This document shows positions 14,471-64,000 of a DNA stretch of 64,000 bases, piece by piece (positions within the stretch are counted from its first letter, which is position 1; every line of letters starts with the position of its first letter). The notes below the pieces were generated by a model, which worked only from the letters and a program-made list of their open reading frames with translations, was not told the DNA's origin and did no database searches. The stretch is from Tilletiopsis washingtonensis. Its lineage: Eukaryota > Basidiomycota > Exobasidiomycetes > Entylomatales. Location: the NCBI RefSeq assembly GCF_003144115.1, contig NW_020312004.1, forward strand, positions 773,490-837,489, read 5' to 3'. Both the position numbers and the translations under genes were made by a program.

Positions 14471-17400
14471 ATGGCAGACGCCGCAGCACCGGGCACGGGC
14501 GCCGAGGATGTCTACCTCTCCGCGTCCGTCGCCCGCGGCAGCCACACGGCCGACAGCGTGCTGCTCTCCGTCGCCGGCACGCCGCTGCGCCTCCTGGCGT
14601 TCGCGGCACATCGGCGCATTGCGCTCTGCTACGGCATCGCCGAAGACGTGAGCAGCAGTGCGGAACAGCGGCTCCCTTGATCAGTGCTGAGTCGAGACGC
14701 GACAGAGCCTCGCTACGCACGCCTTCCTGCCCGCGCTGCCCAGCGCCATCACGGCGCTCAAGTTCGCGCATGCTCCAGGCACCCTGCCGCTCCTGGCCGC
14801 CGCGACGCAGGATGGCTCGTTGCGCATCTGGAGCGTCACTGCAGATGCAGATTCACCGCAGTCGTCACACCAACAGTCGCTCCACGCGAGTCTGCCTGCC
14901 ATTGCGCGCTCGCTGCGCTGGACGGAGCTCGCATGCAGCGCGCCGGCCGCGCCGACTCGGGCGCTCGCTGTGCTGCGGCCCGACAGCGCAGCCAGCCTGG
15001 CCCGGGCAGTCTTCGTCTCTGCGCACGCGGACGGAAAGATCTGCGTCTGGAGCTTGAAGGATGGAGTGCTGCAGCAGCTGCAGCAGCTCAGCATGGAGGA
15101 CGCTTCCGGGCGAGGAAAGGCCATGCCTCTGCCGATGGACGCTGCTTTGGCATTGTCGGGCTCGAATCTGTTCCTGGCCGTCGCCGGTACAGATGCGAAG
15201 ATCACGCTGTTTGGAAGCAGCGCCGAGAAGGTGAGCGAGCGAAGACAAGCGCCCCGCAGATCGCGCGGCAGCGGGGCCTCAGACTCACATTCATGCTCGC
15301 AGCTTGAATTCTCCTCGCTCTGCGGCCTCTCGGGGCACACCGACTGGGTGCGGTCGCTGGACTTTGCCACACCAGAGCAGTCCTCGTCTGCGCTGCTTCT
15401 CGCATCGAGCGCGCAGGATGGAGCCATTCGGCTATGGCGCTTAGCCCAGAGTCAGGCCGAGTCAGGCTCTGAGGAGAGCGAGGCGGACACATTCGACGCC
15501 ATGGCGCACCGACTTGAGGGAGGCACGCGTGATCGACCGCAAGACCTCGTCACGGCAGCACAGCGCTTCGCACTGGGTGAGCAGCAGTGGAGCGTGCGCT
15601 CCGATGCGTTGCTGGCCGGCCACGACAACTGGGTGACCGGAGTGCGATGGGCTGCACGCTCCGCCGACGGCCACCAGCCTGCAGCGCTGCTCTCGGCGAG
15701 CGCCGACAACAGCGTGATCCTGTGGGGCCCTGAGTCTGCGCTTGGTGCAGAACCAGGAGCGTCGCTGCCTTCATTCGGCGCGCACGCAGCGGGAGCAAGC
15801 GCCTCGCACGACACCTGGATGCCTCTGCAGCGCTTTGGCGACCTCGGCAATCAGGGCAGCGTGGCGCTAGGCTTCATGGGCGCTCTTTGGTGGCCGAGCA
15901 CCTCTGGCGACTGCGGGCGCGCAGTCCTGGCGCACGGCTGGAATGGCGCGTTGCACCTCTGGACCGTCGACAAGGAGCAGTCTGCGGCGGCGTGGAAGGC
16001 ACGACCATGCGGCACGGGACACTTTGAGGGCGTCAGGAGCGCACGATGGGAGCCGCAGGGTCGATACTTTGCCACTGGCTCGTGAGTGGGGTCCGCGCCT
16101 GATTTCGGTCCAGCCATGCCAGACTGACCACCCGCGCAGTTCCGACCGCACGACTCGGATACATGCGCCCTGCCAGCAGATCCTCGACGGCCGCGCCGTG
16201 CGATCATGGCACGAGATTGCACGTCCCCAAACGCACGGGCACGCGATTCAGTCGCTTGCATGGCTCGACCCACTGTCGCTTGCAAGCGCAGCAGACGAGA
16301 AGGTCATTCGCATTTTCGATGCTCCCTCAGGCTTCATCAGCAGCGTCCTCGCACTCGGTGTGCTGCCGGGCGCCGCGGCGAAGGAGCTGCCAAGCACGCC
16401 AAAGGCTGCCTTGCTCGCCTTTCACCTGCCAGACGAAGCACACCTGAACAACCCGCAACGCCTCGCTGCGGCCATTCGTAAAGCGGCAGCTGCAGCTGCC
16501 ACTGCCTCGTCAAAAGCTGCACGCAAGCTCACCATCGTGGCCGTCTCGCCGCTCTTTGATGGTCTCGCAAAGGGACAGCCCCTCGCGCTCTCGTTTGCAG
16601 ATGCCGAACGCTTCCTCAAATGGTGCTATGCCGAGGCGTGGAGTACGGCGGTCGAGCACCAGAGGCTCGACCTCTCCGTGCAGGTGCTGCTTGCGGGCTC
16701 TGCGAATGCTTCGCAGTGGCTTGCGCGCCACGTCACAGCCGCACCGCCGGCACGCTTCTACACTGTCGATGGTCAGTCTTGGCCCCACGGCGCGATCGTT
16801 GACAGCAGTTGATCCTTTGCTCCTGTCGCACAGACTCGTCCGCGGCCCTGCCGTTTGCCGCTGAGCTCGATCATCTTCTCGCAAACATCGAGACACAAGC
16901 GCTGGCGCCGAGCGACGCAGCCTCCTCCTCGACGCCGGCCTCAAGTCTCGACCGTGCCTCGTTCCCACAGCATCGCGTCGTCGCACTCGGCGGCACGTTC
17001 GACCACTTACACGTCGGGCACAAGATTCTCCTCAGCATGGCCGCCTTGCTCGCCACAGAGCGCATCATCGTCGGCGTCACCGACGACTCCATGCTCGCCA
17101 AGAAGAAGCACGCCGAGATGCTCGAGCCGCTCACCGAGCGTCTTGCTGCCGTCGATGCCTTCCTGACGGCGTTCCGATCGACCATGACGCCCCTCGTGCA
17201 AGACGTAGTGCAGCTGAGCGATGTCTGTGGACCAGCAGGTACAGATGCTGACGTTCAGGGTCTGCTCGTCACGGACGAGACACTGGCTGGAGCAGACATG
17301 ATCGCCAAGGTGCGCTCAGAGAATGGCCTGGGCGAACTGCGACGCCACGTGATTGGCGTGATTGGCGCAGAGGGAGAGACGTCGATGCAGGGCGATGCGG

Positions 17401-18458
17401 CGCAACTCGCGGCTGCCAAAGTGGGCAGCACGGCCATTCGAGGCTGGCTTGCGAAGCGGCAGGCCGATTCGCCATCGAGCGGCGCCAGCGCGCACGCACA
17501 GCAAGAGGAGTTCCTTCGCTTGGCAGGCAGGAATGGCTCAAGACCCGTCGGCGCTAGTGTTCCACCGCTTGGTCTTTCGAACCGTGCGCTGCACTCGGCA
17601 GACGAAGACATCGTCGAGCCACCTTCCGCCTCGGGACAAGCTCTCGGCACAGCGCAGCGCTCCGTCGCCGGCACCTTGACGCGTCCGCCCACGGAGGAGG
17701 AGCTGCACTCGACGACCCTCTGGCCCGAACTACACAAGATCTACGGTCACAATCTGGAGCTGCTGGCGCTCGATGCGACGGATGAGGGCAACTTGATTGC
17801 CAGCTCTTGCCAGGCCAAGACGGAGGAGAACGCGGTGGTGTATCTTCATCGTACGCGCGAGGAGGGAGGATGGAAGGAAGAGGCGCGCCTCGAAGGTCAC
17901 ACGCTCGGCGTCACAGCTGTGCGCTTCTCGCCGGACGGCAATGCGCTACTGACGGCAAGCCGAGATCGCACGTGGAGGCTGTACGAGCTGAGCGAGGGCA
18001 GGTGGCAGTACAAGGCGCACGAACGAGCGCACAAGCGACTGCTCAACGACGTCGCCTGGCTCTCGGACGGCTCGGGCTTTGTCACTGCCTCGCGCGACAA
18101 GACTGCCATCCTCTACCTGCGCGACAACGGCATCGAGGGCGAAGGCTTCAAAGAGCGCACACGCTTCAGTCTGCCACAAGGCGGCGGATGCACGGCCGTG
18201 TCGACGGCTCATGACCATCGAACTGCGCTCGGATGCGAGAACGGCGACGTGCACATCTTCGCGCCTCCACGCGCTGGCGATTGGCACGAGGCAGGCGAGC
18301 CGACGACACTGCTGCTGCAGGCTCATCATACCGAGGCAGTGCATGAGCTGGCATGGCAGCCGTTGCAGCGATCCGCCCATGCAGACGAGGAGCAGGAGCC
18401 ATTGCTGCTCTCGGTGGGCGCTGACGCAGCTATCCGTCTGACTCGCATATGCCTGTAG
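14471..18458 (+). CDS. ELP2: Elongator subunit Elp2 with an internal phosphopantetheine adenylyltransferase domain
   Basis: Five exons (14471-14647, 14706-15230, 15303-16081, 16140-16771, 16834-18458) encode about 1245 residues, against ~800 for ordinary Elp2. Residues 1-~575 are Elp2 WD40 blades (GHTDWVRSLDF, GHDNWVTGVRW, GHFEGVRSARW, then the Elp2 hallmark EIARPQTHGH and ADEKVIRIFDAP). Residues ~580-915 are a fungal-type PPAT: an N-terminal region, VVALGGTFDHLHVGHKILL with the HxGH nucleotidyltransfer motif at ~764-767, and STAIRGWL near 903-910. From ~947 Elp2 resumes with LGLSNRAL, TLWPELHKIYGH and further blades to the stop. Elp2 scaffolds the Elp1-3 subcomplex for tRNA wobble-uridine modification; PPAT converts phosphopantetheine and ATP to dephospho-CoA. 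There is no stop or separate start at either junction. Intron 15231-15302 is 72 nt and stop-free. Confidence 0.9.
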
Positions 18459-18654: not shown

Positions 18655-19870
<1,216 letters not shown>

Positions 19871-20179
19871 GACTGTGTGTGTCTTGCAGGGGAGAGTGAT
19901 GCGGGTGAGTGCGGGAGGGAGGGCGGGCGGTGATGAGGAGAGGAAGCAGCAGCAGGCACGCGATGTCTGTGCGCGCTTGAGGATGGGGCGGAATACAGCG
20001 CGAGGTTGAAGTCAGGCATAAGGAGGACTACGGAATTGGCAGGCGCGCCGGGTGAAGTGGAGGCTGCGTTCGCTGTCCGTGCGTGCTCGCCGTTCTTCCT
20101 TCGTTCCCCACCACACTCCCTTGCTCGCTGTTCGCCGGCTCTCACGCAGAGCGCTCGTCGCTCTCTCTGCCGGCTCATC
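19871..20179. other. Divergent intergenic region RBX1 / GPI13
   Basis: A 309 bp gap between two divergent start codons. I see no gene; it presumably carries both promoters. Confidence 0.4.
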
Positions 20180-23100
20180 ATGTCACGTCTGCGCCCGACG
20201 CCCATTCCCTCGGCCTATCCGCGCGGCGCCCCTCCTTCGCCTCCTCCCTCTCCCCCCCGGCCAGCCCTGCAACGGGCCGACAGCGCCTCTTCCTCGCACT
20301 CACATGGCTCGCATGGCTCGCACGACAGTTCGCATTCTTCGCACTCCTCGCACGAAGAGCGTCAACGCGAGGCCTTCCTCGGCGAGACGAACGGCCCGCC
20401 CTCGGCGGTGGGCCCCGTAGCTGCGGCCGTGGCAGTGCTGCTCGCGCTCTTTGCCTGTCAGGTTGTGGGCCTCTATCTCTTCACCCAGGGCTTTCTGCTG
20501 TCGCGAGTCACGCTCGATGGCACGGCCAGCTGCGAACGGCCGGCGAGGGAGAGCTGGCAGATGCCGGTCGTCGAGGCACTGTGGCAGGACGGAGCTGTGG
20601 ATGCGCAGGCATGGGAGAAGGCGCTGGAGCAGAATGCCGAATGCACGCTGCCGGCGACGTACAGCCGCTCGCTGCTGCTCATCATCGATGCGCTGCGCTA
20701 CGACTTCATTGCGCCGCTGCCGTCGTCGTCATCGCTCGACGACTCGAGCTGGGCGCCCTCTGCCTTCCACCACCACATCCTCCGCCTGCCCGCAGAGCTG
20801 CACGCGAGCGCCGCCGCACACACGTCCTTCCTCGCGCACTTCCACGCCGATGCGCCCACGACGACGCTGCAGCGTCTCAAGGGCCTGACGACGGGCACTC
20901 TGCCGACTTTCATCGATGCCGGCTCCAACTTTGCCGGCGCAGAGATCGACGAGGACAGCTGGCTGCGCCAGGTGCGTCTGGCTCAGCTGCGGCTGCGCGG
21001 CAGCGCGGCGGCGAACGGCACGAGGGCGGGCATGGGCATGATGGGCGACGACACGTGGCGCGCCGTCTTTCCGCGCATGTTCGACGCCGACTGGAGCTGG
21101 CCGTATGACAGCTTCAACGTGGAGGATCTGGACACTGTCGATCGCGGCGTCGAGGCGAGACTGCTGCCATTCCTGAGGCGCACCGGAGACTCGCCGAAGG
21201 ACGCAGAGACGTGGAGCGTCCTCGTGGCGCACACGCTGGGCGTGGATCATGTGGGCCATCGCTTCGGCGCGAGCCACGCGAAGATGAAGGGAAAGCTGGG
21301 GGAGATGCAGGCGTTGTTGGAAAGCGTGGTCGAGGGACTGCCAGAGGATGCAGTGCTGATGCTGATGGGCGATCATGGCATGGACGAACGAGGCGATCAC
21401 GGGGGAGATGGAGAACTTGAGACGGGCGCAGGGATCTGGATCTACTCCAAGACGCCCTCTGGCGCGCGGCAAGCACACGAGGCGGAGGTCGCAGCTCTCC
21501 TCTCCTCCGCTCCGAGCGGACACGACGCATTCGCGCCCTACACCTCCTTTGCTCCTCTCCCGTCTCCGCCCTTCTCGGCGCAAGGCCATCGATCGGTCTC
21601 TCAGATCGACCTTGTCCCCTCCATTTCTCTGCTCCTCGGCGTCCCCATTCCCTTCAATTCCCTCGGCACCGTCATTCCCGAGCTGTTCCCGCCGTCTTCC
21701 TCCTCGCCCGATCGGCTTTTGAGGGCACTGCGCATCAACGCTCTGCAGGTGCGCCGCTATCTGCGCAGCTACGCCGAGAAGTCCAGCGACTTGTCGCCGT
21801 TCGAGGAGGAGATGGAACGCGCTTGGAAGACGGCGATGCAGGCCGATGCAGCCTACGCCCAGCCGTCGTCGTCTCGCTCCGCCAGCGACGCGCAGAGCAT
21901 CGCCGCTCGGCGGGCAGCCGCTGCAGCCTACCAGCTCTACACGCGCACCGCCCTCTCTCGCGCGCGCTCCGTCTGGGCCCAGTTCGAGATGCATCGCATG
22001 CTCGCCGGCCTCGTGCTCCTGGCACTCAGCGTCGGCAGCATTCTGCAGCTGCGCAGCGGCGCACTGAAGGGCTTGGTGCTGGGATGGGAGAGGAGAGAGG
22101 AACGCATCCAGCCGGCAACGCCGGGACGCAGAGGCGCGAGATTGCGCATTCGACAGCGGCGCTTTGCGAGGCGCACAGAGGGAGTCGAGCAGCTTGCGGC
22201 ACACGTCGCGCACACGTCGGCTCGTGCAGCTGCGAGCTGTGCCCTCGTGGGCGCGAGCATCGGCGTCGTGAAGCACTTCCTTCCGAGCACGCACATGACG
22301 GCCATCTTCGGTGGACTCTCGATCCTCGACCTCAGTCTCTTCGGCGCTTCTGCAGGCGCGCAACTCGGGCTGCTACTACCTCAAACAAGCGGCTGGTCTC
22401 TCCCATCTTCTCGTCCGACTGCACTCGGCCTCCTCGCTCTCCTCCTGCCCGTGCTGCACGTCGTGGGTCTCGGCTCCGTCGCGTTCGTTGATTGGGAGGA
22501 TCTCGGCGTTTCAGTGCTTCTGAGCATCGCTCTGCTCGCACGCGCAGGCAACGCCTATCTCTTTGCGCCGACGGCAGCGCTGCGCAACCGGCTTGTTCTG
22601 CTCGCCCTCGGCGCGGCACTCGGCATGCGCATCGTGGCGTTCAGCAGAGTGTGTCGCGAGGAACAAGCGCCGCATTGCCGGACGACGTTCTACGCTGCTG
22701 GGCAAGCAGGCGGCGGCGCCACCATCAACAGCGTCTGGACCATGGGAGGCGCTTACCTCGTCGCCCTCACTCTGCCTTCTGCACTCGGATGGGCACTCAA
22801 ACGCTCCAAGTCCAACGCCGGCGTGGCGCCAGTCTTCCTGAGCTGGGTCCTGAGACCTACTCTGCTCCTCGGCGCCGGCTACTGGCTCCTCGATTGGGCA
22901 GCGACGGAAGAGTGGGGCGCCAGCACGCAGGTCTTCCTCGAGTGGCTCAAGCTAGCGGTGGCACGTGTGGATCTCGTCGCCGTCTGCGTCGTCGGACTAG
23001 CGTTTTGGGCCTTCAGTCCGCTCTGCATCGAGCTCAAGCAGGAGACGCTTCCGGCCGCGCCTCCTCAAGCCACCGACGCAGCCGCAACGGCATCGACCGC

Positions 23101-23998
23101 ACCGAGCGCAGCAGCACAGCCTCAAACGCGCATGATTGTGCTGGGCTTTGCCAACAGTCTCGGCTCGCTCTACCTGCTCCTCGTGGCGCTCCTCACAAGC
23201 CTGCTCTTTCTGCTGGCGCAGCCCATGGGACAGCTCGTACTCGCGGCGGCGCTGCTTGTGCTGCTGGCCCTGGCCGAGCTGGGCGACAGCGAGCGCGATG
23301 CAGAGCTGTTGCGCTCGCGATTCCTCGAGGCTGCGCAGAGCAAGAAGTCGGCCGCCTCCGCCTCGTCAACGCCACAGCGTGGTGCCGCCCCGTCGCCAGC
23401 TGCCGGCTCATTTGCCGCCGCCGCCGCCGAAGCGGCCTCTGCGCCGCTCGGCTCTGCGGGTCCGCCGCCGCTCGTGGCGCCTCGGCTCATCGAGACGACG
23501 ACGCTGGCACTGCTCGGCTGCGTGCTCTTCTTCGCCACGGGCCACCAGGCCACGTTTCCCTCGATTCAGTGGCGCGTCGCCTTTGTCGGCCTGCGCAGCG
23601 TCGCCTATCCTCTCTCGCCCGTGCTCGTGGCGCTCAATTCGTTTGGTCCGTCTGCGCTGCTGCCCGCCATCTCCATGCCGTTGCTGGCATTCTGGAACCT
23701 CTCGCCTCGTCCGCGTGGCGATCCCAACGCCGCCAAGCCAACGCGCATGCCGACGATCTCCCATCTGCTCGCGACAGCACTCGGCCTGCTGCTCTACCAC
23801 AGCGTCGTCACGCTTGGCGCCGCCTTCTTTGCAACGTGGTTCCGCCGCCATCTGATGCTCTTCAAGCTCTGGACGCCGCGATACATGCTTGCGGCGGTGG
23901 AGCTGACGACGCTGCATGTGGGCTTGGTCATGGCGGTGGTGGGCGCGGGCATCGTGGCGAGCAAGGTGGGCCTGACGTTTGGCAGCGCGTTTGAGTGA
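20180..23998 (+). CDS. GPI13: GPI ethanolamine phosphate transferase 3 (Gpi13/PIG-O)
   Basis: A single uninterrupted exon encodes 1272 residues. Gpi13 adds phosphoethanolamine to the third mannose of GPI precursors in the ER lumen. After a Ser/His-rich cytosolic leader (repeated SHGSHGSH) and one TM helix (~75-100), the alkaline-phosphatase-type lumenal domain has the motif LLIIDALRYDF (~162-172), the nucleophile region LTTGTLPTFID (~235), GVDHVGHRFG (~354) and GDHGMDERGDHGG (~397). Roughly 600 residues of hydrophobic helices follow, as in PIG-O. The Met at 20180 follows a pyrimidine-rich leader and gives a sensible N-terminus; the frame is open upstream to 20006 without a plausible start. 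It is notable for lacking introns among intron-dense neighbours. Confidence 0.92.
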   Translation: MSRLRPTPIPSAYPRGAPPSPPPSPPRPALQRADSASSSHSHGSHGSHDSSHSSHSSHEERQREAFLGETNGPPSAVGPVAAAVAVLLALFACQVVGLYLFTQGFLLSRVTLDGTASCERPARESWQMPVVEALWQDGAVDAQAWEKALEQNAECTLPATYSRSLLLIIDALRYDFIAPLPSSSSLDDSSWAPSAFHHHILRLPAELHASAAAHTSFLAHFHADAPTTTLQRLKGLTTGTLPTFIDAGSNFAGAEIDEDSWLRQVRLAQLRLRGSAAANGTRAGMGMMGDDTWRAVFPRMFDADWSWPYDSFNVEDLDTVDRGVEARLLPFLRRTGDSPKDAETWSVLVAHTLGVDHVGHRFGASHAKMKGKLGEMQALLESVVEGLPEDAVLMLMGDHGMDERGDHGGDGELETGAGIWIYSKTPSGARQAHEAEVAALLSSAPSGHDAFAPYTSFAPLPSPPFSAQGHRSVSQIDLVPSISLLLGVPIPFNSLGTVIPELFPPSSSSPDRLLRALRINALQVRRYLRSYAEKSSDLSPFEEEMERAWKTAMQADAAYAQPSSSRSASDAQSIAARRAAAAAYQLYTRTALSRARSVWAQFEMHRMLAGLVLLALSVGSILQLRSGALKGLVLGWERREERIQPATPGRRGARLRIRQRRFARRTEGVEQLAAHVAHTSARAAASCALVGASIGVVKHFLPSTHMTAIFGGLSILDLSLFGASAGAQLGLLLPQTSGWSLPSSRPTALGLLALLLPVLHVVGLGSVAFVDWEDLGVSVLLSIALLARAGNAYLFAPTAALRNRLVLLALGAALGMRIVAFSRVCREEQAPHCRTTFYAAGQAGGGATINSVWTMGGAYLVALTLPSALGWALKRSKSNAGVAPVFLSWVLRPTLLLGAGYWLLDWAATEEWGASTQVFLEWLKLAVARVDLVAVCVVGLAFWAFSPLCIELKQETLPAAPPQATDAAATASTAPSAAAQPQTRMIVLGFANSLGSLYLLLVALLTSLLFLLAQPMGQLVLAAALLVLLALAELGDSERDAELLRSRFLEAAQSKKSAASASSTPQRGAAPSPAAGSFAAAAAEAASAPLGSAGPPPLVAPRLIETTTLALLGCVLFFATGHQATFPSIQWRVAFVGLRSVAYPLSPVLVALNSFGPSALLPAISMPLLAFWNLSPRPRGDPNAAKPTRMPTISHLLATALGLLLYHSVVTLGAAFFATWFRRHLMLFKLWTPRYMLAAVELTTLHVGLVMAVVGAGIVASKVGLTFGSAFE

Positions 23999-42304: not shown

Positions 42305-45077
<2,773 letters not shown>

Positions 45078-45166: not shown

Positions 45167-48100
45167 TCACCAGCTGTCGAACTTGATCTCGCCGCCGGCG
45201 AGCAGCTCGTCGTCTTCCAGCACCTGGTCCCCCGCATTCTCGTCCTCGCTGTCCTCATCCTCCTCACTGCCGCGGTCGTCTTCCTCGTCACGCGCGTCGC
45301 TGGCGCCCTCGGCCTTGCTCTTCTGGCCAGCGCCACTGAAGTCGAAGAGGCTGACGTCGTCGTCCGAGGCCATGCCTTCGCCTTCGTCCTCCGAGTCCGG
45401 CTCGGCCGTGATGACCTGTGCGGGAGTGAGCATGCTGCGGCTGAGGCGGCAAGGCATGGGCCCGACTCACAGGACCCACGAGGGGAGAGGTCGCCTGCGT
45501 CGTGCCGTCACCGCCGGGCGAAGCCGCGCGACGGCGTCGCCAGGGTGCGGTCCACGAGGTGACACCAGAGCCGTAGCTGCTGGATGTGGCCGCCTCGAGT
45601 GAGTCGGATCGTCCATGCGACGCCGACGGCCGTGTGCGTGCATCGGCCAGCGCTGCCTCGGCGGTGAGATCGGGCGCCGACGTGCTCGACGGCAGAGTCT
45701 GCGAGTGGCTCGGCGCTTGCGGCGTCTTGCTCTCGACGCCCTCGGGGCTGGCGATGGTCTGAGCACTGGTCCGCCGGCTGAGACCAAGGCTGCCGAGTCC
45801 GAATCTGCTCCTCCGGCGCGGCTCATCGTCCTTTGAGCTCTCGCCGCCACCGCTGCGCACACTGGCGGTGCTGCGGACGCTGCGGCCGCTGCGTGCCGAC
45901 AGTGCGGGAGAGACGGGCGGCGTCGCCAGGAGCTCGTCGTCTGGCGGCAGCTCGAACTGCGGGATGGACGGGCGCCAGAAGTTGAAGTCGTTGTACTGCG
46001 GCTGGATGGCCGCCGCCTCCGAGCGCACGGTGATTGGAGGGAACATCTGGTCGACAAGGTCGGTCATGTGGATGTATCTGCGGCGCGCATTAGCAGGCGA
46101 CCGCCGGCGGGTCTGATGAGCAGCACTCACGAAGACTTGTAGCCAGCCAGCTCGAGCAGCTCCATCTTTACCTCGCCGTTGGAGTCGATGGTGAAGATGC
46201 GCGAGCTCGGGATGTTGACGCTGCGGTAGCTCAGGGCGTCGGTGATGCGGTTGCCGAAGCCGGCGTAGAACGGCGAGGTCTGGAGCGCCGACTGCGCGGC
46301 CGAGTCGGCTGCCTGCGCCGTGGCAGCGCCCTGTGACGGGCTGTCCATGCGGCCCGCAGCGGCATTGCCCGCCATGCGCAGCGAGTCTGCCTGGACGCCG
46401 GGCCAGCGCTCCGCCGCATCGGGGCCGATGTTCTTGGGCTGCGAGGCACGCGGGTCGGCGCCGAAGAGGCGCGCAATGTCGCGCAGGCACGCCATCTTGA
46501 ACACCTCGGGCTTGCGCAGGATGACTTCGCGGTGCAGACTGGCCATGAGGCGGTCTGGGCTCATGATGACGGGCCCGTCGGGCAGCTGGTAGTTGGCCTG
46601 CTTGATGCCCTTGAGATAGTCGCGCGTCGCGTCGGCCTGCCCGATGGCACGGCTCGTCAGGTACATGATGCGATAGCCGTTGCGCGCGATGTCTGTGTAG
46701 AGCTTGGCAACTCCGACGTGCGTCCAGTCGCGGCCGATCATGGTGAAGACGTGTCCGAGCGCATCGGACTTGGTGATGGTGCCGTCGATGTCTGAGACGA
46801 CAATCTGGTGCGTGCTCTCCCACAGGAAGATGCGCGCCGTGCACGTGGCCACGCCCGAGTACGACGAGGTGACCGAGAAGGTGATCTTGTTGGCGCCCTT
46901 CTTGAGGTTGAGCGACTTGAGCTGCTCTGAGGTGAGTCTCAACGTCTTTGCGTAGGTCTTCTGCGGCTTGCGCTGCTGAGCCGCCGTGGGCGCGACGTTG
47001 CTGCTTGCGCTGGCGGCGGTGGCAATCTTGATGGCTTCCGCATTGACCTCGAGCACCGAGTCTGTCTGCGCACGGTCTAGAGGGCGAGGTACCGACGCCG
47101 ACACTGCGGGAGCCAGATCGTCGGAGCTACGCAGCGGAGCGCCATCTGGCGTCTTGCCCGCCTCCAGCTCCGCAGTCTTGCTCCGGTTCCACCAGCGCGA
47201 CCAAACACTTGCGCGAGGCCCGACATCCGCGTCGGCATTCGCGGAAGCTGCAGCGCTGCCTGCTTGGCTCGCTGCGAGGGTCTTGCGGTATAGAGCCAGT
47301 GTCGCAAGAACAGCAGAAGCATTCTCCCACGTCAGGAAGCGATCATGGTAGCGCACGACGAGGCGGTCGTCGTTGACCACGCCCTCGTCGTCGAGGAAGC
47401 GCTGGAAACTGATGCGGTTCTCCTCGAAGTTGTACCGATCCTCGTCGGACGCCGACGAGGCCTGATCTCTTGCCGCCGGAGAGCCGGCCGCGCCGAAGCT
47501 TGCGGAGAAGCACAGGCTGAGCTCAAAGTCATGCGCAGCGTCGTCGAGCTGCAGCTTGAAGATGTACGGCTCTTCCTCGGAGCTCCAGAGCTTGCCGGAA
47601 ACGTCCGGCGCCAGGCCGTCGAGTGCGCCATGCTCGGCATCCATCGCGCAAGCGCGTCGTGCCGACTCGGAGCCGCCTGCACCGGCAGTGCTCTGGTGCC
47701 GCACTCTCCGCTGCGCCCGTTCTTTCTGCTTCGGCAGCTCGCCCCAGCCCCACTCGTACTCGGGCGAGCGCAGGAGCGCATCGGTGTCGAGCCCGCCGGG
47801 TCTGTGCGGCGGCGTAACGTCGCCCTTGACTGTGCGGTGGCGGGCAGCACTATACTCGATGTCGGCACTCGTCGCGCGCTGATGCTGAGACCACGAGGTC
47901 GAGCCCACTTCTGCCTCGGTGTCGCTGAGCGAAGTGTCTTGGAAGTGGCGCTTGGCACGCCTGGACGGCTCGGCGCGCTGCTTGTCGTCCTGCGCCACAT
48001 CTGCCTCCTCGCTCTCTCCCTCAGCAGGCCCGGCAGCCAGGGTGTCAGGGCGCAGCAGACGCGTCAGGCGAACGAGATCGCGGCTGAGGCTCAGCTCGTC

Positions 48101-50282
48101 GGCGCCAAAGTCTCCGTCTGCTGCGGCAGAGAGGGGTGGAGTGTCGTCTGGCAGACCGCGCGTGCTGATCTTGCCGGGCGTGAATGAGGCTCGGCGAAGA
48201 GAGTCGGATGCGATAGAAGCACTTGACGCCGAGTTGCGGCGATGCCCCAGGTGCGGTCGATCGGATTGCTCGCTCTCTGCATCTGGTGAAGCACCTCTGC
48301 TCGCGCTGCGAGGCCGTGTGCCCTGCGCGACCGCTCGGCGCAGCTCGTCTCCCGAGTGCGGCGAATGCGGGTGTGCCATCAGCTCGCCGTGGCCGTGGCG
48401 GCCAGAGCCGCCGTGACGCCTGCTGAGCGGCATCTCCTCGGAGAAGCGCTTGCCCTCGGCAAACGCCAGGTCCTCGCCGTCGGCCGTCATCTTGTAGCCG
48501 TCCATGTCGAGCATGTACTGGAGATCTAAGGCAGTGTCAGCTTGGATGTATGAGATGTGCACGGCGGTGCATGCTCACCCTCCTTGCGCTTCGTGCCTGA
48601 GATCCGCGACGCAGTCTTGCTCGTCGTGGCGCTATCGTCCTGCTCATCACGTCCAGCTGTGCTCTGCTCGGACGCCGACGGCGAATGGCCCAGACGCTCC
48701 TTGAGAATGCGAGGCTCCACCTGGCTGGCGGAGAGCTGCACGGTGCCGAGGCCGCTCGCTACCGGCACAAGGCGGCGTCCGGCGAGGAACTCGGAGTGGT
48801 CGGACTGGGCGGCCGGCCGTGTTTCGCTAGCAGACGCTGCGCCGCCGGCGGACTCAGAGGAGTGCTGCGACGACGACACCCCTCCGCCTGTAGCACCAAA
48901 CGGAGAGGGGTAGGCCTCCTCCTGCTCGTCGGCATGGAGCATGGAATCGGCTTGGCGTCCGCGCGTGTCGTCACGCTCGCCGGAAGGCGATGAAGAGCGA
49001 CGACGGGCCTGTCCCACAAGACGCTCGGCCCGCCGCTTCATGGCCATCTCGAGCTTGTCGGTCTCTGTGTCGTCGGCCTGCGGCGGCTCAGTGGGCGGCG
49101 TGGCATCGTCCTCCGCCTGCATCCTGCGCTGGCCGCTGCTCGAGCTCGTCGACTCCAGAGGCACGGCACCGCCGGCTCCGTCTCCTCCGGCGAGCGGCGC
49201 AGATCCGTCGTCGCCCGTCTGCTCTGCCTTGCGGATCTTCTCCAGCTTGTTGCTGCCGCCGGTCAGCGGCGCGACCACCGAGCGGCCCGCACCGCCGATG
49301 ACGCCGCTGGCCTTTGAGACGACGGCGCCTACCTGGCCCAGGACGCTGGACGGGCCGGCTGGGCCGCTGCCAGTGGCGCCCGAGTCTGGCGGGACGTCGA
49401 GCGTGCCCGGCGAGTCGTCGTCAGGACGAGTCTCGTCCTGCTCGGGCTCGTCACGGCCCTTCTTCTCTCCATCAAAGTGCGCATCCGAGGAAGCGCGGCT
49501 CGTGGGCTGTGTGACCCCGGCGCTCTCGGTCGTCTGGCTAGGCAAGGTCGTGGCAGCACTGGCTGCGTCTTCCTGCGCCGTGGCAGCAGAGATGCTGGCT
49601 CCGAGGTCGAGCGCCTCCATGCCGTCCTCGCCGGGCAGCTCTAGCGAGTCCGCAGAGAGCTCTGGGCTCGACGCCGCGGAAAGGATCGGCGACGTGACCA
49701 GATCGTCGGGGATGCCCTCGCGCGACTCGTCTTCGTCCAGCTCCAGCACGAAGAAAGCCTCGCCTGCCTCTCCGACCTTCATGGCGAACGGAAGAGGGTC
49801 GGGCGAGTTGTTGAGGTGCAGAGTCACCTGCAGCGCGCGTCAGACAGCGTCTCGCCCCCCGACTGCAGTCTGCTCATGCGTACCTTGCGTTCTGCCGGAC
49901 GAAGGACAGACATCTTGCCGAAGCGCAGATGGAAGGGCGTGCTGCACGCGCAGACGAGAGCGGGAGTCAGTTGTAGCGAAGGCGAGCCTGGGCGTCCACC
50001 GCGCCGCATCGTGAGCCGGACCACGCACAGGCCGCTGCTACGCCGGCGTCGCCTCGCGGACACTTGACAACAAGATGCTACTCACCTGCTGAGCTCAGTG
50101 GTGGAGCGCACGCGCTTCTTCATCGCTCCCGGCAGAGCGCCCGGCGTGTCGTCGGGCACATCCTCCTCGACGTCCACCTTCTTCTCCACCACGATGATGT
50201 CGATCGCGCCGCTCAGCGTCGCCGGGTTGATCGACGGCACCGAGTTGTAGACCGAAGAGACAAGGCGGCCAACATACTGCAT
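45167..50282 (-). CDS. PAH1: Lipin-type phosphatidate phosphatase Pah1/Smp2
   Basis: Exons 50282-50086, 49941-49884, 49827-48579, 48525-46131, 46077-45471 and 45415-45167 encode about 1584 residues. Pah1 dephosphorylates phosphatidate to diacylglycerol on ER and lipid-droplet membranes and so controls triacylglycerol and nuclear-membrane growth. The N-LIP domain begins MQYVGRLVSSVYNSVPSINP, an amphipathic membrane-binding helix, and continues through TPFHLRFGKMSVLRP and PFAMKVGEAGEAFFV. A very long Ser/Asp/Glu-rich middle follows. The C-LIP HAD domain has the catalytic DIDGT (VVSDIDGTITKSDALGH, ~1077) and GYRIMYLTSRAIGQA. The tail is strongly acidic and ends FDSW, like the conserved Trp-containing end of yeast Pah1. 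It is nearly twice yeast Pah1 length, from disordered inserts. The 144 bp intron 1 could hide a further small exon. Confidence 0.92.
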
Positions 50283-62424: not shown

Positions 62425-64000
62425 CTACGCCTCGGGCGCGCTGGCACGGCGATCGATGATAAGGAGCTGGCAAACGCTCTCGGCGAATCGCTTCTGGTCC
62501 GACTGCTTTGTCAGGACGTCAGCAGCGTTGTCAGCAGTCGCAACTTGGTGGAGCACTATCTCCTTGCGCGCGACAAGCTCGCGGACAAAGTGGACCTTGA
62601 CGTCGAAGTGCTTGGTCCGACTGTGGAACGCGGGGTCGTTGGCAATTTTGTGCGCCGCCTCGTTGTCGCCCATGATGATCGGGGCGCCAAACGAGTGCGA
62701 GAGACCGAGGAACTGGACGACGTCGGCGAGAAACTTGACTTCTCTCGCGGCCTTGCACAGGGCAACATACTCGGCCTCGGCCGTCGACAGCGCCGTGAGC
62801 GACTGGAGCTTAGAGCGCCAGGAGACAGCGCCGCCGTTGATGAAGACGACGTAGCCCAAGATGGACTTGGCGCTTGGGTTGCTTGCGGCGGCAAAGTCGC
62901 TGTCGGAATGCGCGAGGATCTTCTTGACGCCGTGGCCTGGCTGCTTGCCGCCATACTCAATGCCGTAGCCGATCGTGCCGACCACGTAGCGCAGCACACC
63001 CTTGAGCAGTCGGATGTGCGACTGAGTGGGCTGTTGCGTGAATCGAGCAAGCTTCGATAAAGCGTAGCACACGTCGGGTCGCGTGCACTGCCCGAGCCAG
63101 TTTAGGGCTCCAAGCAGTGACGCGAACTTGTGCCGTTTGGCCGGCGTGGCTTCGCCTTCCTTGGCGACATTGCAAGAGACGAGGCGGTCTTGAGTGGCAA
63201 CGATGGGCGTCGTCTTGCGCTTGCCCTTGTCCCGAGCAAAGCCAAACCGCTTCTGGAGCGCTTCGACGTAGGCGCGCTGCGAGATGCGGATGTGCGGCAA
63301 GCCGTTGACGACAGACTGCTCGATGTGGAGCCCCAGCATCCAATTCAGCGCACCGCCTTGAGCGGCCTTGAAGCGGGCGCAGAGATCGGTGATGGCGGAC
63401 TCTTGATCCTCCTTGCGCCGTGCTCCGATGGCGAGATCGTCGACGTAGACAACGAGGATAGTGAGATCGGCATCGGACGACGAGGGAGTGGGTCGGCGTG
63501 CGTACACGCACGGCTCCTTGTGTTCCATTCACGGCCGGCCTGTTTGAGGCCGTACAGCGAGCGGCAAAGGCGAAGAACGCAGCCGTCGGCGACCGGGAAT
63601 CCGGGGATCGGAGCCATGAAGACCTCGTGCTCGAGGTCGCCGTTGAGGTATGCGGAGTTGTAATCGAGCTGCTGCCAGGTGAAGCCGTAAAGCGCTCCGA
63701 TGGCGAGCGCAAACCAAAGCGAGTCGAGACGCGCCACTGGGGCGAAAGTCGCCTCGTAGTCGAGGCCCTCCGTCTGCGTGAACCCCTTGGCCACGAGTCG
63801 GGCCTTGTACTTGAGCACTCGGCCCGCCAAGTCGAGCTTAAGCTTATAGACCCAACGGCTGCCGACAATGTTTGTGCCCGGTGGACGGGGCACAACCTCG
63901 AAGGTGCCGTGGGCCACGAGCGACTCGTACTCGCGCGCCATCGCCTTCTCCCACTCGGACCAGTTGGGCCGCTGCCGAGCCTCGGCGAGGTGCTGGGGCT
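62425..64000 (-). mobile_element. Ty1/copia LTR retrotransposon pol, reverse transcriptase and RNase H, frameshifted
   Basis: Two minus-strand frames together cover the 3' half of a copia pol. From the right edge to about 63530, the reverse-transcriptase start is present (NWSEWEKAMAREYESL, SRWVYKLKLD, ARLVAKGFTQTEGLDY, LYGLKQAGREW). The next frame (63528-62425) has PCVYAR, the catalytic VVYVDD, PYRS-like ALNWLGQCTRPD and the RNase H block with SLSTAEAEY-like TALSTAEAEYVAL and ADVLTK. The junction near 63525 changes frame and lacks about 20 residues that copia proteins normally have there, so this copy is defective. Gag, protease and integrase would lie beyond 64000. Codon use is less extreme than in neighbouring genes. 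Confidence 0.92.

Follow-up and report, generated by a model that had tools for sequence, protein, structure and literature searches.

The 64-kb stretch of DNA analysed here (the window) contains a locus that raises the question of whether one gene can specify both Elp2, a subunit of the tRNA-modifying Elongator complex, and phosphopantetheine adenylyltransferase (PPAT), an enzyme of CoA synthesis, within the same protein. A sequence-only reading of the window had proposed that a single frame runs from Elp2 into a complete PPAT domain and back into Elp2. The domain architecture is probably real. The sections below deal with the gene model, the identity of each part, the way in which the parts are joined and what such a protein might do.

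Gene model and reading frame

The model of the fusion gene was made by hand, from the sequence alone. It consists of five exons on the + strand (14471–18458), which join to 3738 nt encoding 1245 amino acids and a stop, with 0 internal stops. The four introns (58, 72, 58 and 62 nt) each have GT..AG ends. The proposed single frame was recovered in full, with colinear Elp2 halves and a motif-bearing PPAT core between them. The features of the locus are as follows.

14471–14647, + strand: exon 1, aa 1–59, presumed N-terminus of Elp2, placed by its ATG and frame
14706–15230, + strand: exon 2, aa 60–234, first WD40 domain of Elp2; the phmmer match to Elp2 begins at aa 156
15303–16081, + strand: exon 3, Elp2, aa 235–493 and two bases of codon 494, placed by frame and phmmer
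16140–16365, + strand: exon 4, first part, second WD40 domain of Elp2 up to the insertion, ~aa 494–569; similarity to Elp2 by phmmer runs as far as aa 560–566
16366–16771, + strand: exon 4, second part, first segment of the insert, ~aa 570–704, open in frame and without a recognised family
16772–16833, + strand: intron 4, within the insert, 62 nt, GTCAGT..GCACAG
16834–17534, + strand: exon 5, first part, remainder of the insert including the PPAT core (~16968–17465, aa 750–915)
16989–17024, + strand: PPAT motif GGTFDHLHVGHK, aa 757–768, with H764 and H767 forming HxGH
17427–17441, + strand: PPAT motif STAIR (STxIR), aa 903–907, located in the translation
17535–18458, + strand: exon 5, second part, C-terminal blades of Elp2, aa 939–1245, and the stop, placed by phmmer and Foldseek

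GC3 is 0.715 in the insert, compared with values of 0.755 and 0.726 for the Elp2 stretches. Codon usage was considered as proof of the frame and was rejected, the correlation with the flanks (0.82 in frame 0 versus 0.75 in frame 1) hardly separating the two frames.

Identity of the flanking halves

The translated protein was compared with PDB chains using phmmer. Elp2 sequences occupied the first four places among 336 matched sequences (E values from 1.6e-82 to 3.5e-61), and the fifth place was taken by another WD40 protein (E value 5.6e-40). For PDB entry 8avg, which we take to be mouse Elp2, the whole-protein E value was 1.6e-82, and its residues 124–476 and 493–789 aligned with aa 156–563 and 940–1216. 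Human Elp2 (PDB entry 8ptx) aligned through residues 127–477 and 487–819 with aa 159–566 and 935–1241, and yeast Elp2 (PDB entry 5m2n) through residues 120–472 and 487–733 with aa 165–560 and 939–1181. The match is interrupted at the same place in all three printed alignments and the halves are colinear. No significant separate Elp2 alignment was returned by phmmer for aa 1–155 against PDB chains, where exon 1 is placed by its frame and ATG only.

Residues of functional weight in Elp2 were traced through the alignment. Mutation of yeast Elp2 at R626, R628, R654 and R675, at residues 201–204 and at residues 552–557 leads to tRNA-modification phenotypes, according to the available part of PMC5286394. 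Among these sites, 11 of the 14 residues are identical in the fusion protein: all four arginines, three of four at 201–204 and four of six at 552–557. At further mutated sites given in that part of the paper, residues 458–460 are kept (3/3), residues 440–441 and 544–545 are not (0/2 in each case), one of the two residues 597 and 599 is kept, and residue 598 falls in an alignment gap.

A structural model of exon 5 had a mean pLDDT of 61.6 and a pTM of 0.45. Block means were 70–90 pLDDT over its residues 301–450, which form part of the downstream blades, and residues 479–540 were below 50; the remainder of the model was weak. When the model was searched using Foldseek, yeast Elp2 5m2n ranked third and 4xfv sixth, with two other WD40 proteins above 5m2n.

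Position and size of the insert

The gap between the aligned Elp2 ends measures 376, 368 and 378 residues in this protein, compared with 16 in 8avg, 9 in 8ptx and 14 in 5m2n. The insert therefore extends over ~aa 570–938, or 16366–17534, close to the interval of 16396–17558 that had been proposed for it. Human Elp2 R462 corresponds to R551 here, and the Elp2 match stops 12–15 residues further on (8avg and human). According to the available text of PMC8113450, R462 contacts the region facing the SAM domain of Elp3, being an interface residue on a strand that belongs to the second WD40 domain. Since R462 is a strand residue of the second domain, the insert lies within the second WD40 domain and not between the two propellers. 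The sequence-only reading had put it in a loop between two propeller segments, and in this respect it needs to be corrected. Its further suggestion that the propeller could still close around the insert is plausible, given that only 9–16 residues are replaced and that residues 301–450 of the exon 5 model are predicted at block means of 70–90 pLDDT; the rest of that model is weak.

An assembly error, or a chimaera of separate ELP2 and PPAT genes, would also give such an arrangement, and the evidence comes from a single 64-kb window. Two junctions would then be needed, each in frame and on the same strand, leaving the Elp2 halves colinear with only a short loop lost. A tblastn search of the window (E value 1e-3) gave no second PPAT or ELP2; it did return a 26% WD40 self-match between the N-terminal and C-terminal halves of Elp2. 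The longest word common to the two 160-base junction stretches that were compared is 8 bases. We consider an artefact of this kind very improbable. A target-site duplication at the junctions was also considered and was rejected on the basis of the same 8-base word.

The PPAT core

In Pfam, the core (~aa 750–915) matched PF01467 with a score of 36 bits, the cut-off being 21. It matched NF001985 with an E value of 1e-25 and 90.6 bits, which is under the curated cut-off of 104; because this model names bacterial and archaeal proteins, the low score was not taken to exclude a eukaryotic PPAT. A sequence match was also obtained to PDB entry 3do8 from A. fulgidus (E value 3.1e-7), for which the molecule name is phosphopantetheine adenylyltransferase and the entry title is that of an unknown-function protein from Archaeoglobus fulgidus.

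A model of the core was built with seven archaeal relatives. Foldseek placed 3do8 first, with a TM score of 0.77 by target length, among eight matches at an E value of 0.001 or better. Two matches at an E value of ≤0.001 were found in a viral structure library, namely a Tupanvirus ORFan and an ethanolamine-phosphate cytidylyltransferase. Block means in the core model were 75–94 pLDDT over its residues 41–170 (aa 746–875). Its residues 178–199 were below 50 pLDDT and the STAIR stretch (198–202) was of low confidence.

The relatives were sought in bacterial, archaeal and viral collections, so the search bears nothing on fungi. Seven archaeal PPAT loci were found among 109 matched stretches of the prokaryotic contig collection, and no PPAT relatives among the 3 and 18 matched stretches of viral contigs. 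GGTFDHLHVGH, K795 and R807 are identical in all eight sequences of the PPAT alignment, although the identity of GGTFDHLHVGH is partly built in because the seven relatives were found by patterns containing FDHLHVGH. STAIR was matched by eye to VSSRRIR-like stretches in archaeal PPAT translations, and its counterparts are presumably KLSSTEIR and KVSSSSFR of Cab4 and COASY. On comparison with provisional sequences of both proteins, the core is 38% identical to Cab4 and 39% identical to COASY.

Judged by its sequence, the core is an archaeal/eukaryotic-type PPAT, cytidylyltransferase-like and carrying both HxGH and STxIR. The earlier proposal that an Elp2 loop holds a PPAT core with its catalytic motifs, while the two halves of Elp2 are kept, is supported by the gene model, phmmer, Pfam, NCBIfam, 3do8 and Foldseek. 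Conceivably, the inserted domain could be catalytically dead and serve a structural or ligand-sensing role, with PPAT being supplied by another gene. Such a second PPAT gene could lie outside the window, but HxGH, K795, R807 and STxIR are all present, and we regard a dead domain as quite unlikely.

The segment of ~180 residues that precedes the core (~aa 571–750) had been ascribed to the fungal PPAT as its own N-terminal region. This claim did not gain statistical support. Pfam gave no match for the start of the insert (~aa 570–704) up to an E value of 1. On comparison of ~aa 571–750 with the N-terminal regions of COASY and Cab4, both taken from provisional sequences, the observed score was reached by 506 of 2000 shuffles for COASY and by 277 of 2000 for Cab4.

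One polypeptide or several

The PPAT core and the C-terminal blades of Elp2 share an uninterrupted open frame of 551 codons (16803–18458). Because this single frame spans both, the downstream junction, from the core into the C-terminal part of Elp2, is independent of introns. The upstream junction falls in exon 4, which is joined to exon 5 via intron 4. Splicing of intron 4 is required for the frame, since its retention leads to a stop at 16810. Its donor, GTCAGT, is atypical (the other three donors are GTGAG[CT]), and a simple pattern search of the intron gave no CTNA-type branch match. Intron 4 is the weakest point of the gene model.

In-frame ATGs are absent between aa 426 and aa 773, a position already beyond HxGH, and again downstream of aa 889. 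A motif-complete PPAT, or the C-terminal part of Elp2, would therefore have no ordinary ATG of its own. The missing methionines were also considered as a statistical signal; this was rejected, as the chance at the Met frequency of this protein is ~0.026, and they are used here only as a constraint.

The locus might instead give rise to two or more proteins, with Elp2 in its ordinary form and PPAT made separately, through alternative transcription, splicing or proteolysis. The atypical donor of intron 4 is compatible with this, as are the GT/AG pairs that would remove the insert (donors at 16325–16440, acceptors at 17460–17575), of which 10 of 33 preserve the frame. However, in none of these ten is a GTRAG donor paired with a YAG acceptor, an intron removing the insert would be ~1.1–1.2 kb compared with the 58–72 nt of the modelled introns, and the distribution of in-frame ATGs described above argues against separate starts. 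Production of separate proteins therefore appears unlikely to us.

The frame in the gene model, the homology of both parts, the catalytic motifs, the replacement of 9–16 residues and the missing ATGs together make it fairly likely that the gene encodes one bifunctional polypeptide, Elp2 with a tethered active PPAT, provided that transcription and splicing proceed as modelled and that both parts fold and are active.

Neighbouring genes

Other open frames in the window were examined using Pfam at an E value of 1e-5; four of the nine were matched and five were not. A RING-box-like gene, recognised by eye, lies at ~18.9–19.9 kb on the − strand (open frame 19374–19574), convergent with the fusion gene, and we assume that it is Rbx1/HRT1-like. 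At 19937–23998 (+) there is a long open frame in which Pfam recognised a type I phosphodiesterase domain (PF01663); it is probably a GPI ethanolamine phosphate transferase. Further Pfam matches are a ThrE-type transporter at 108–1604 (−), a pyridine nucleotide-disulphide oxidoreductase at 43641–45074 (+) and a lipin at 46130–48574 (−). By eye, the frame at 62425–63528 (−) looks like the terminal reverse transcriptase/RNase H region of a retrotransposon of the copia type; it had no Pfam match at an E value of 1e-5. Rfam and tRNA scans of the 64-kb window found nothing.

Proposed function

In the bifunctional protein, the two Elp2 halves would fold as the usual double WD40 protein, join Elongator and clamp Elp3. 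The PPAT module would stand in for a short loop of the second WD40 domain, hanging on linkers, and as a tethered active enzyme it would convert phosphopantetheine and ATP to dephospho-CoA. The simplest benefit would be obligatory co-expression from a single gene, for which channelling of CoA to Elp3 would be unnecessary. Elp2 clamps Elp3 opposite Elp1, as described in the available parts of PMC10018365 and PMC11096365. Yeast Cab4 is a member of a CoA-synthesising complex around Cab3 (available part of PMC8494682); by analogy, a PPAT on Elongator might equally recruit a Cab3-type CoA-synthesising complex.

A more far-reaching possibility is that a PPAT held on Elongator couples CoA synthesis, or CoA/acetyl-CoA status, to the modification of wobble uridines by Elp3 through local supply or sensing. 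The product of PPAT is dephospho-CoA, not acetyl-CoA, and the conversion of one to the other needs a dephospho-CoA kinase and an acetylating step. By the usual strand order of WD40 repeats, the insert loop presumably lies at the far end of the strand that bears R551, which also counts against coupling. The yeast enzymes of the CoA steps are treated in the available part of PMC8494682. Coupling would be in keeping with the end of the Elp2 match 12–15 residues past R551, the equivalent of human R462 at the Elp3 SAM interface (available text of PMC8113450), and with the use of acetyl-CoA as a substrate by Elp3 (PMC11096365, available part). In the same part of PMC11096365, however, tRNA binding by human ELP123 is neither raised nor lowered by acetyl-CoA or CoA, and it is lowered by desulpho-CoA. 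On balance, we find coupling doubtful.

It is similarly improbable, in our estimate, that this lineage has lost its free-standing PPAT and carries its sole PPAT on Elongator. A single polypeptide would then serve both CoA synthesis and wobble-uridine modification, and the abundance or assembly state of Elongator would feed back on CoA supply. Should the sole-PPAT reading be true, CoA metabolism would be physically linked to translation fidelity. The suggestion that the protein is essential for two pathways would likewise hinge on whether the genome has a second PPAT.

The bifunctional protein would place a CoA enzyme within a subunit of a tRNA-modifying complex that uses acetyl-CoA. Were it confirmed and found to be conserved, it would amount to a natural tethering experiment on the link between CoA supply and Elongator activity, and to an example of a whole enzyme tolerated in a propeller loop. 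Annotation could list the lineage as being without PPAT, or list its ELP2 as unusual. A literature search returned no paper linking Elp2 with PPAT or phosphopantetheine, within a scope that papers using other wording, preprints and subscription journals would escape.

Comparison with known systems

The protein resembles Elp2 of known structure (PDB entries 5m2n, 4xfv, 8ptx and 8avg) in its colinear halves, its double WD40 region and the identity of 11 of 14 phenotype sites from the available part of PMC5286394. It differs from them by the 368–378 residues that replace 9–16 in the second WD40 domain. With archaeal/eukaryotic PPATs (3do8, yeast Cab4 and the PPAT half of human CoA synthase) it shares the catalytic core and its motifs, whereas the segment N-terminal to the core is not recognisably that of Cab4 or COASY. 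Cab4 is free-standing (PMC8494682, available part), whereas the PPAT here is embedded in an unrelated scaffold.

COASY is likewise a case in which a PPAT is joined in frame to a second functional protein. Both COASY and bacterial CoaBC are fusions within the CoA pathway, and COASY combines PPAT with dephospho-CoA kinase, thus joining consecutive steps of one pathway (PMC8494682, available part). In the protein described here, by contrast, PPAT is paired with a tRNA-modification subunit and occupies an internal position in it.
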